DNA of 64,000 nt. It comes from Pseudofrankia inefficax (GTDB taxonomy: Bacteria > Actinomycetota > Actinomycetes > Frankiales > Frankiaceae). Shown here in pieces: positions 6,934 to 53,526 of the stretch (position 1 is its first letter; each line of letters begins with the position of its first letter). The notes under the pieces are model-generated. The model saw nothing but the letters and a program-made list of their open reading frames with translations, was not told where the DNA came from and made no database searches. The position numbers and the translations under genes are program-made. The stretch is taken from NCBI RefSeq assembly GCF_000166135.1, contig NC_014666.1, positions 930,001 to 994,000 on the forward strand, read 5' to 3'.

Positions 6934-7008
6934 TGATCGGCGGTTCGGCCCTCCGGTGGTCGTTGTCGGGGCCTGCTGACAACCACCGGAGGGCCAAAAC
7001 AGCGATCA
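6934..7008. repeat. Palindromic repeat family B, copy 1 (hairpin between convergent genes)
   Basis: A long imperfect hairpin. The main arms are GGCCCTCCGGTGGT (6947-6960) and ACCACCGGAGGGCC (6982-6995), extended inwards by TTGTC/GACAA after a 2-nt bulge and outwards by TGATCG/CGATCA at the ends. The loop is ~10 nt. It sits between two convergent genes, so it can serve as a bidirectional terminator. The half-site GATCGCTGTTTTGGCCCTCC recurs at 52676 and, diverged, at 11122-11204, so this is a dispersed family and not a simple local terminator. Confidence 0.85.
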
Positions 7009-13285: not shown

Positions 13286-13829
13286 GCGCCAGGCTGAGTC
13301 CTACGTGGTGGTCGGACTCGGTCGGGCTTCGCGGCCATTAGGTAGGACTCGATCCAATGCCCCCTCCGGCAAGACTCGCCCGTTCCGGCCTCCCCTTGTC
13401 GGGAGGCCTGGCGGTTGCCCGGGTCCTACGCGGTGTGGCCCATCTCGCCCGCGGTCGGGCGGCAGGTAGGAATGGAGCCTGATCCGGGCCTTCTCCCGAA
13501 ACGGGCGCTGGGCGGTTCGGGGTCCGCCGCGCCTCCCGCCGATCTGCAGGTCGGACGGGGGTCCGGTTTCCATACCCGGTCGCGGATCTTCGGGGGAATC
13601 TGGCCGGCCCAGGAGGCAAGATCGCGAACCTGGTATGGATAAAAGGCGCATAGCGGGCGTGGGGCGACCGTTTCGATACCAGACTGGCGATCACCGCGGG
13701 TGAGCACGCCACCCAGGGCCGATGATCGCTGGTTTGGTATGGAAATCGGTGTGGAGCCGATCCGCGAGTAGCCCGACCGCATGCGTGCCGCGCAATCGAA
13801 GGCCTGTCGTGGATGGGAGCCGGCCGGGA
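13286..13829. other. 544-bp intergenic region holding the 186-bp element
   Basis: No gene is supported. It contains an inverted repeat GAGTCCTAC (13296-13304) / GTAGGACTC (13342-13350) just past the ATL stop, which may terminate that gene, and then the 186-bp dispersed element at 13565-13750. The area is locally less GC-rich, around TATGGATAAAAGG. Confidence 0.6.
13565..13750 (+). repeat. 186-bp dispersed two-palindrome element, copy A
   Basis: It consists of two imperfect palindromes. Unit alpha is GGTTTCCATACCCGGTCGCG with its partner AAGATCGCGAACCTGGTATG (13617-13636), followed by GATAAAAGG. Unit beta is TTTCGATACCAGACTGGCGA (13671-13690) with partner TGATCGCTGGTTTGGTATGG (13723-13742). 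A second copy lies in reverse orientation at 53136-53321. Conserved half-sites match position by position without any indel, while the spacers between them differ. No transposase or target duplication is visible. Confidence 0.85.
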
Positions 13830-26434: not shown

Positions 26435-27772
26435 ATGACGACGACGACCGAGCGGCCGAGCGTCATCCCGGCCGTCCGCCCGACCCTGCCGGCCGAGCTG
26501 CCGACGGTGGTGGAGCGGACGCTGCCCAACGGGCTGCGGGTCCTGGTGGTCGCGCGCACCAGCGTGCCGCTGGTCGAGCTACGGCTGCGGATCCCGTTCG
26601 CCGGCCTGGGCGCCGACCACGCCGCCCGCGCCGAGCTGCTCACCGAGACGATCTTCACCGGGACCGCCGGGCGGGACCGGGTCGAGATCGCCACCGCCGT
26701 GCAGGCACTGGGTGGTGCGCTGTCGGTCGGCGTCGACGCCGACCGGCTGGCGATCGTCGGCTCGGCGCTGGCCACGAACCTGAACCCGCTGCTGGGCATC
26801 CTCGCCGAGGTGCTCACGGAGCCGACCTACCCGGACGACGAGTTCGTCGGCGAGCGCGACCGGGTGGTCGAGGACGCCACGATGGCGCTCAGCCAGCCGG
26901 CGGTGATCGCCCGGGAGGCGCTGCTCGGCCGGATGTTCCCCGGGCACCCCTACGGCACCGCGATCGTCGGGCCCACGGTGCTCGCCGGCGTCGAGGTCGG
27001 CGCGGTCCGGGACCTGCACGCCACCCGGATCTCGCCGCGCGGCGCGATCCTCACGCTGGTCGGCGACGTCGAGCCGGAGGCGGCGCTGGACGCCGTCGGC
27101 GCGGCGCTCGGCGGCTGGACCGGTGGTGAGCCCGAGAAGATGCCGACCGTGCCGACGCTGGCCGCCGGCCCCATCATCATCGTCAACCGGCCCGGCGCGG
27201 TGCAGACCAACATCCGGCTCGGGGGAGTCGCCCTCGACCGGACCGCGCCCGGTTACCCCGCGCAACGGCTGGCGAACACCATCTTCGGCGGCTACTTCAG
27301 CTCCCGGCTGGTGGACAACATCCGCGAGGACAAGGGCTACACCTACTCGCCGCGCAGCTCGGTCGACCACTACCTCGCCGGCTCCCGGTTCACCGTCGCC
27401 GCCGACGTGGCGACCGACGTGACCGGCCCGGCCATGGTCGAGATCCTCTACGAGCTCGGCCGGCTGGCGGTGCTCGCGCCGTCGGCCGACGAGCTCGAGG
27501 CCGCGCGGCAGTACTCGGTCGGGACGATGGCGCTCGGCAGCGCGACGGCCGCCGGCCTCGCCTCGACCCTGTCGGGGCTCGCCGGTGCCGGCATCGGGGT
27601 CGAGTACCTGCGCGACCACCCGGCGGCGCTGACGAAGGTCACCGCCGAGGAGGTGCTCGCCGTCTCGGCCGGTCTGCTCGCGCCGACGAGGCTGGTCACC
27701 GTCCTCGTCGGTGACGCCGAGAAGATCACCAGCGCGGTCGCGGCCCTCGGCGCGGTCACCGCGGCCGACTGA
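26435..27772 (+). CDS. M16-family protein, non-catalytic partner
   Basis: A 445-residue M16 fold in which the zinc motif position reads DHAARAELL, so no HxxEH is present. The Arg/Tyr pair that contacts substrate is retained (NIREDKGYTYS). This is the alpha-type subunit that pairs with a catalytic M16 protein, the preceding gene, 70 bp upstream. GGGGAAG precedes ATG 26435 at ~5 nt. A terminator hairpin follows the stop. Confidence 0.92.
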   Translation: MTTTTERPSVIPAVRPTLPAELPTVVERTLPNGLRVLVVARTSVPLVELRLRIPFAGLGADHAARAELLTETIFTGTAGRDRVEIATAVQALGGALSVGVDADRLAIVGSALATNLNPLLGILAEVLTEPTYPDDEFVGERDRVVEDATMALSQPAVIAREALLGRMFPGHPYGTAIVGPTVLAGVEVGAVRDLHATRISPRGAILTLVGDVEPEAALDAVGAALGGWTGGEPEKMPTVPTLAAGPIIIVNRPGAVQTNIRLGGVALDRTAPGYPAQRLANTIFGGYFSSRLVDNIREDKGYTYSPRSSVDHYLAGSRFTVAADVATDVTGPAMVEILYELGRLAVLAPSADELEAARQYSVGTMALGSATAAGLASTLSGLAGAGIGVEYLRDHPAALTKVTAEEVLAVSAGLLAPTRLVTVLVGDAEKITSAVAALGAVTAAD

Positions 27773-46785: not shown

Positions 46786-46862
46786 CGCGGGGTGGAGCAG
46801 CTCGGTAGCTCGCTGGGCTCATAACCCAGAGGTCACAGGTTCAAATCCTGTCCCCGCTACCA
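46786..46862 (+). tRNA. Initiator tRNA-fMet(CAT), copy 1
   Basis: A 77-nt cloverleaf with encoded CCA. Acceptor CGCGGGG pairs with CCCCGC apart from the first base pair (C1 opposite U72, unpaired as initiators need), and the anticodon stem has three G-C pairs (GGGCTCATAACCC), both initiator marks. Anticodon is CAT. TTGACA (46744) and TACGGT (46769) upstream, 19 bp apart, make a candidate promoter. The same tRNA recurs at 49130. Confidence 0.97.
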
Positions 46863-49129: not shown

Positions 49130-49206
49130 CGCGGGGTGGAGCAGCTCGGTAGCTCGCTGGGCTCATAACCCAGAGGTCACAGGTTCAAATCCTGTCCCCG
49201 CTACCA
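49130..49206 (+). tRNA. Initiator tRNA-fMet(CAT), copy 2
   Basis: Identical in all 77 nt to the copy at 46786, including encoded CCA. The upstream four bases CCGA match too, but the promoters differ, so each copy is likely expressed. No integrase lies near either copy. Confidence 0.97.
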
Positions 49207-52836: not shown

Positions 52837-53112
52837 ATGGCACTGGTCGAGCGCGATCCGTCGGACAGGACACTCGTCACCCACCTCGGCGGGGCCGAGA
52901 TCACCGTCAGACCGGAGGCGTCGTCCGGCGCCGGGAACGCGCCGGTCGTGTTGCTTCGGCTGGTGTCGCCGATGTTCGACTCGTTCGCCGTCGCCTACCT
53001 CGGGCCGGTCGAGGCGACGGCCCTCGCACGCGCCCTGCTCGCCGCCGCCGAGGCCGCCGACGGCCGCCCAGGCACCACTGTCCACGGCTGGCGGAACCGG
53101 CCGCTGCACTGA
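52837..53112 (+). CDS. Small hypothetical protein, 91 aa
   Basis: ATG 52837. The product has mixed beta-strand and helix pattern (APVVLLRLVSPMFDSFAVAY, then VEATALARALLAAAEAAD) with no signal peptide or Cys. Codon bias supports it; TAGGAC lies 6 nt before the start (near -10). I do not recognise the family. It is isolated between repeat elements. Confidence 0.6.
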   Translation: MALVERDPSDRTLVTHLGGAEITVRPEASSGAGNAPVVLLRLVSPMFDSFAVAYLGPVEATALARALLAAAEAADGRPGTTVHGWRNRPLH

Positions 53113-53526
53113 TCCCACCCGTAGCCACCCGGAGCGCCGGTTTCCATACCCAACTGGCGATCACAGGCTAGTTGACCTGTCGCAGGACGCCTTGATCGCG
53201 AACCAGGTATGGAAACTGGCGCCTGGTGGCCGATTTGCTCCTTTTATCCATACGTGGTTCGCGATCATGATGAGCCACTGGCTCGGCGCCGCCTGAAGAT
53301 CCGCGTCTGGGTATGGAATCCGTCGCCGCCCGGCTGTGGCGAAGATCGACGGGGGCCCCAGCCGCGCCCGCGGGCCCGCCAGCTCCCAGCCGAGCCCAGC
53401 CGGCCGAGCCCAGCCGAACCCGGCCGCCCGGCCGCCCGGGCGGCCGGGCCGAATACGGCCGGGCGACCTGGTGGGGCTAGCCGGCCGGGGCCGAGCCCAG
53501 CTCTCCTCGGTCGGGGCGAGCTGGGC
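53113..53526. other. 414-bp intergenic region with the second 186-bp element
   Basis: No gene. It contains copy B of the 186-bp element, then ~130 bp of very GC-rich sequence with short CCCAGCCGAG-type repeats, and the terminator of the oxidoreductase gene. Confidence 0.5.
53136..53321 (-). repeat. 186-bp dispersed two-palindrome element, copy B (reverse orientation)
   Basis: Same element as 13565-13750 but inverted: base x here corresponds to 66886 minus x there, without any insertion or deletion. Half-sites: TTTCCATACCCAACTGGCGA (53141), TTGATCGCGAACCAGGTATG (53192), CTTTTATCCATACGTGGTTC (53241) and AGATCCGCGTCTGGGTATGG (53297). The regions between the arms have diverged completely, while TGGATAAAAG and GGTATGGAAA remain identical. 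Confidence 0.85.

Follow-up and report, generated by a model that had tools for sequence, protein, structure and literature searches.

Two copies of a four-site element in the window

The window, i.e., the whole 64-kb stretch of DNA that was analysed (positions 930001-994000 of a single 8,815,781-bp contig), contains two copies of an element composed of four 22-bp half-sites (h1 to h4) of the type TTTCSATACC-N6-GCGATC, which alternate in orientation. Copy 1 lies on the minus strand (13567..13745, half-sites numbered in that direction) and is matched by our sequence-only profile, R1, with 128.4 bits (E 4.7e-39). Its four half-sites are h1 (13724..13745, minus strand), h2 (13671..13692, plus strand, inverted relative to h1), h3 (13620..13641, minus strand, of the TATCCATACC type that served as orientation marker), and h4 (13567..13588, plus strand). 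Copy 2 lies on the plus strand (53141..53319; R1 118.9 bits, E 3.9e-36) and comprises h1 (53141..53162, plus strand), h2 (53194..53215, minus strand), h3 (53245..53266, plus strand), and h4 (53298..53319, minus strand); the first base of h4 departs from the half-site pattern. The two copies share 71% identity, and the coordinate rule that had linked them in the original prediction (x + y = 66886, e.g., 13565 + 53321) holds without indels, with both copies at the positions given there.

Both copies are intergenic, as had been proposed, and lie between convergent genes, and no transposase was noticed among their neighbours. Copy 1 is preceded by a gene on the plus strand with an alkyltransferase-like DNA-binding domain (PF01035, 12791..13285), which points toward the element, and followed by a short-chain dehydrogenase ORF on the minus strand (PF13561, 13830..15431), the true start of which is probably internal to the ORF. 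Copy 2 is flanked by a 91-aa ORF with no family assigned (52837..53112, plus strand) and by the gene for an FAD-dependent oxidoreductase (PF01266, 53527..54903, minus strand). A proposed kinship with the sequence at 6934 was not supported, since R1 gives no match there at E values up to 10. Elsewhere in the window, a weak R1 match at 26647-26778 (12.7 bits, E 0.0035) is probably due to chance, and a near-identical pair of tRNA genes (46786-46859 and 49130-49203) was found 2.3 kb apart.

A dispersed family within one genus

The observation that led to this analysis was right, and the family is much larger than two copies: a genome-wide search yielded 35 full copies for alignment from the window's own genome (G000). 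A BLAST search of this genome with copy 1 gave at least 70 matches, at least 19 of which (query included) span at least 180 of the 206 query bases; both counts are lower bounds, as the best 40 of 80 candidates were scored. In most of the 35 aligned copies, from which L014 with its inverted centre, L034, and partial copies had been left out, the half-sites start at positions 0, 53, 104, and 157, corresponding to steps of +53, +51, and +53 bp in the main group. The mean information per column amounts to 1.45 bits in the half-sites and 0.71 bits elsewhere (28 of the 35 copies taken as 179 bp, 4 of these 28 being one base off register at one end). Furthermore, the half-site pattern with up to 1 mismatch has 149 matches in this genome, compared with 3 for a reversed control. 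The 92 exact half-site matches among the 100 listed all overlap an R1 match when compared by eye, leaving no isolated half-site among them.

Across genomes, R1 found matches at E 0.01 in 7 of 8 genomes of the genus, a genus of soil and root-nodule bacteria, and none in the eighth (G007); G004 has at least 4 such matches. At E 1e-6, 7 of 35 genomes of the family were matched, all of them within the genus, and 0 of the 27 other family genomes. The numbers of matches are lower bounds, as scoring was limited to the top 150 or 77 candidates of each genome, and many elements are matched on both strands because of their palindromic build. A pattern scan of 84,980 species genomes, for which the CATACC class (see below) was used and in which the window's own genome may be absent, returned 11 loci, 10 of them in Frankia sp. 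AgB1.9 and Pseudofrankia sp. BMG5.36 and 1 in Succinivibrio. As judged from these searches, the four-site element is genus-specific dispersed DNA of approximately 190 bp that is present in dozens of copies.

Carriage by plasmids or viruses was considered and rejected. The single short plasmid match (53 of 281 bases) lies inside a Shinella relaxase gene, and a plasmid search with the element plus array gave no match, nor did a phage search. Three viral contigs were picked up by pattern, none of which was matched by the profile at E values up to 1, and no tandem arrays of the kind described below were found in viral contigs. The literature that we searched on Frankia intergenic repeats holds no report of such an element or of the 25-bp tandem repeats, and the element is absent from the passages seen of PMC3733652 and PMC2770080. 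As far as this limited literature search goes, the four-site element is apparently unreported.

Tandem arrays beside the elements

A subset of the copies is accompanied by short tandem repeats. The 25-bp unit TTCCGCGG-N7-GATCTCCGCG, searched with up to 2 mismatches, has 53 matches in 13 clusters in the window's own genome (e.g., at 898268, 998355, 1586423, 7261683, and 7740742), 12 of which lie 40-110 bp past h4 of an R1 element and share its orientation; the remaining cluster, at 256000 (L188), adjoins no detectable four-site element. Other species (arrays L203-L213) have 25-27-bp arrays of up to 29.8 copies, some of them without a detectable four-site element. Perfect and near-perfect arrays consist of a core like GATCTCCGCGTTCCGCGG followed by 7-9 bp that vary by array and stand behind a GC palindrome, and a lead like GGGCGCCCCGGCGCCC is found upstream of most arrays examined. 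Two arrays (L204 and L205, both on contig 2 of G006) are located near a stretch that we take to resemble 16S rRNA; a run of N separates them from it, so that their true place is uncertain.

Site spacing is kept in place

The original prediction held that the spacing of the half-sites is constrained and that the spacers are freer to change. A table was drawn up of 109 elements found in seven genomes; four intact GATCs are present in 87 of these elements (six genomes). The distance from GATC to GATC is 34-36 bp between h1 and h2 (35 bp in 71 of 87), 68-71 bp between h2 and h3 (69 bp in 45 and 70 bp in 34), and again 34-36 bp between h3 and h4 (35 bp in 69), with windows of 30-40 and 62-76 bp having been allowed. 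Taken alone, this table is biased, because R1 was built from elements spaced in this way and favours near-equal lengths.

A comparison in place, within orthologous pairs, is cleaner. Six such pairs were compared, with the half-sites placed by the GATCs of each element. Inside the elements, 2 indel events (2 bases) were found in 1078 positions, compared with 29 events (133 bases) in 1382 positions of the flanks, although up to 12 of the 29 flank events may be alignment ends (up to two per pair) and the flank counts are inflated by the right flank of L009/L049, which is partly non-homologous (6 events). Substitutions affect 48 of 528 half-site positions, 100 of 550 spacer positions, and 281 of 1382 flank positions, and the difference between half-sites and spacers is significant over the six pooled pairs (Fisher 1.3e-5). 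This effect is carried by three pairs, L006 (9/88 vs 24/91), L011 (7/88 vs 26/91), and L167 (12/88 vs 23/92), with little or none in L009 (5/88 vs 6/91), L165 (9/88 vs 10/92), and L024 (6/88 vs 11/93). A seventh pair, L031/L100, which was not pooled because its orthology is less certain, shows the opposite trend (9/88 in half-sites vs 6/91 in spacers). Both parts of the claim are supported, and the sequences indicate that spacing has been kept to 1-2 bp over six species while the spacers drift.

One locus differs in this respect. In a G004 copy that is orthologous to an element of G006, 25 of 85 half-site positions are changed (plus 4 indel bases), compared with 18 of 90 spacer positions (plus 2 indel bases), i.e., the half-sites at this locus look as if they were decaying in the way expected after loss of a protein that reads them.

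The four sites share a switchable core

Each 22-bp site combines a changeable core, which might be called its address, with a near-invariant GATC. Over 108 elements, the cores fall into the classes CATACC, CTGCGC, and CGTAC (the last in G003), and the core form GCATACCC of G005 and G006 was scored together with CATACC. Outside these classes are 63 of the 432 sites, 28 sites are gapped, and 42 of the 108 elements contain at least one site that belongs to none of the three classes. With regard to CATACC and CTGCGC, the sites of one element agree almost without exception: in 231 of 231 site pairs in the window's own genome (shuffles: mean 0.607, maximum 0.696), in 44 of 44 in G002 (shuffle maximum 0.911), and in 97% of 59 in G001 (shuffle maximum 0.930). 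Only 1 of the 108 elements mixes CATACC with CTGCGC; 11 mix CATACC with CGTAC, classes that are one base apart. From these sequences, it looks as though the recognition sequence varies between groups of elements as well as between species.

The summed mutual information of the cores is 1.26 bits for h1:h2, 1.29 for h3:h4, 1.10 for h1:h4, and 1.39 for h2:h3, and it is of similar size for h1:h3 (1.04) and h2:h4 (1.21), which have the same orientation and are unable to base-pair. Since the core covaries equally in same-strand and pairable sites, the pattern points to a single sequence-reading protein. A shared core could also arise if the sites within an element homogenised one another; this is the less likely explanation, since the N6 part of CTGCGC-class sites is specific to each site and common to the window's own genome and G001.

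The same sums bear on the original view of the element as two folded units. If it were a structured RNA or DNA hairpin element with its fold under selection, one would expect the good folding that each window copy does show relative to shuffles (z -3.1 and -6.9), as well as the individual column pairs that score above the shuffled level (z 5.9 and 4.0 for hairpin 1; z 4.8, 3.9, and 3.5 for the giant fold). However, the two window copies fold differently, one into a pair of hairpins and the other into a single large one, and when both folds were tried on the 35 copies, mean pairing was approximately that of shuffles, with 0.73 vs 0.70 for hairpin 1, 0.58 vs 0.58 for hairpin 2, and 0.68 vs 0.67 (outside) and 0.63 vs 0.63 (inside) for the giant fold. 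The compensatory arm changes suggested as a check are scarce: RNAalifold finds 3 of 17 pairs with both sides changed, and for one of these pairs the change is seen in 8 of 35 sequences, but its covariation term is only -0.21. At the gathering score, Rfam yields two tRNAs in the 64-kb window and nothing else. Because the core covaries also between sites unable to pair, folded units are not supported, and we regard selection on a fold as very improbable.

Gene context and movement of copies

Using a simple gene caller, we examined 27 copies, 1 of which (L005) overlaps with a called ORF. Among the 22 copies with both neighbours called, 14 lie between convergent, 5 between tandem, and 3 between divergent genes, an excess of convergent settings both against an expectation of 0.25 (p 1.4e-4) and against the 9 of 39 pairs in the window itself (p 5.6e-5). 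This preference was noted post hoc and was not a prior hypothesis; it could reflect tolerance of insertions. It is also what a bidirectional transcription terminator between convergent genes would show, but a simple scan of the two window copies revealed no site resembling an intrinsic terminator (GC-rich stem with a T run), and the 31-bp interval within each inverted pair together with the fixed spacing is not a terminator trait, which makes this reading, too, highly unlikely. No widely recurring neighbour gene was found among 168 ORFs near elements, which form groups of at most 4, including the dehydrogenase beside copy 1. Of 11 neighbour proteins that were scanned, 4 have no match and 7 belong to ordinary families, among them the two right-hand genes of the window and the alkyltransferase-like gene.

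The region around copy 1 (13288..13821) is without an equivalent in G002, the nearest relative, which has 25 bp in its place; six other relatives have 33-111 bp with nearly the same edges. Copy 1 is hence absent from this place in 7 of 7 relatives, with 25-111 bp there compared with 534-568 bp in the window, depending on the edges matched. Insertion in this lineage is the simplest explanation, and repeated loss is less simple. Among the scored matches in its own genome, the closest source for copy 1 has 83% identity, and no target duplication was made out at its edges, which are not sharp. Copy 2 is older. At its place, G001 shows a 3-bp gap, G002 retains h1 only, and for the other five relatives the left flank could not be connected with the right one. 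The original prediction had put selection in opposition to recent duplication; this contrast was too sharp, given that the family has spread and that none of the seven relatives has copy 1 at that place.

Two further copies, L167 and L168, share 98% identity across 357 bp. A recent transposition was considered for L168 and dropped, because an element occupies the corresponding place in G002; as G001, in addition, holds a shortened site and an array remnant there, we read the pair as a case of gene conversion.

These data also bear on a purely selfish origin, in which the copies would be non-autonomous, MITE-like DNA, their sites would be recognised by a trans-acting transposase, and conservation across copies would reflect no more than the requirements of active copies. 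Like MITEs, the element is short and dispersed, with presence and absence at the place of copy 1, and has terminal inverted repeats, namely h1 and h4, which are extended by CGCCGA/TCGGCG in many copies. The scatter of copies over unrelated gene settings, the absence of copy 1 together with its surroundings from that place in all seven relatives, and the existence of distinct subfamilies within one genome fit this reading as well. Unlike a typical MITE, however, the element has two extra internal sites and conserved internal spacing. No target duplication was made out at the blurred edges of copy 1, and neither a partner element nor a larger gene-bearing version was seen in the stretches examined. 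Old orthologous copies retain their spacing in place, copy 1 is without a near-identical source among the scored matches, and the one near-identical pair is better explained by gene conversion. We therefore consider a purely selfish element a serious but doubtful explanation.

Comparison with known dispersed repeats

Dispersed repeats in bacteria are frequently explained by a hairpin together with a Y1 transposase. Such a RAYT partner was rejected here: none of the 7 element-bearing genomes of the genus has a match to the Y1 transposase family (PF01797), and the only match among the genus genomes is in G007, in which R1 found no element. The element resembles REP sequences, BIMEs, and REPINs in its dispersed occurrence and its regularly spaced, alternating intergenic units, an arrangement described for BIMEs (PMC2817692), and in having subfamilies that differ in sequence. 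It differs from them in its 22-bp unit, the lack of a conserved hairpin, and four sites at near-fixed spacing, as well as in carriers that lack a match to RAYT (TnpA-REP) or Y1 transposases. Of the two tags that may mark the foot of a REP hairpin, GTAG is absent from the site consensus when inspected by eye, and CGTC is present between h2 and h3. The copies that precede head-to-tail 25-27-bp repeats are reminiscent of iteron-like or satellite arrays, but arrays in other species also stand without a detectable four-site element, and no replication gene was noticed beside the arrays.

A putative docking platform

Considering the spacing, the shared core, and the spread of copies together, we think it probable that the element serves as a docking platform whose four sites are bound by a single multimeric protein with sequence specificity. 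With about five helical turns between sites, all four would lie on one face of the DNA, where a putative protein multimer could occupy them and bridge or wrap the DNA. In this view, the copies would have been dispersed as non-autonomous mobile DNA, and a benefit from the complex bound to them would account for the retention of some old ones. The most likely benefit is a boundary, topological or transcriptional, that separates convergent genes; of all steps in the proposal, this one is the least certain. Against the docking platform, it must be noted that the neighbour genes yield no widely recurring candidate protein and that gene conversion, as in L167/L168, homogenises copies too. We regard the element as a dispersed intergenic repeat that is most likely a four-site protein platform.

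A more far-reaching version would be a genus-specific chromosome-organising system, in which a protein with an evolvable address reads the four-site elements and forms bridged boundaries between convergent genes, the CATACC and CTGCGC classes, which almost never mix, correspond to two paralogous proteins with separate sets of boundaries, and the tandem arrays are a second component. We offer this version tentatively, as a possibility that is rather unlikely to hold in full.

The family combines constrained site spacing with a shared, switchable recognition core in carriers without a Y1 transposase match. If the reader protein were found, the natural variants, which comprise several addresses (two of them in one genome) and a species with seemingly decaying sites, would provide a ready test of how a protein and its dozens of scattered sites change together.

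Rearranged and paired elements

A few elements depart from the common arrangement. In L014 (3647624-3647821 of the window's own genome), the central stretch between h2 and h3 lies in the opposite orientation with respect to the outer sites, which resembles the outcome of a recombination between the inner inverted sites. Furthermore, at L007, L009, L012, and L049, two elements are found a few hundred bp from each other and form a composite repeat, and some further elements likewise occur as close pairs.
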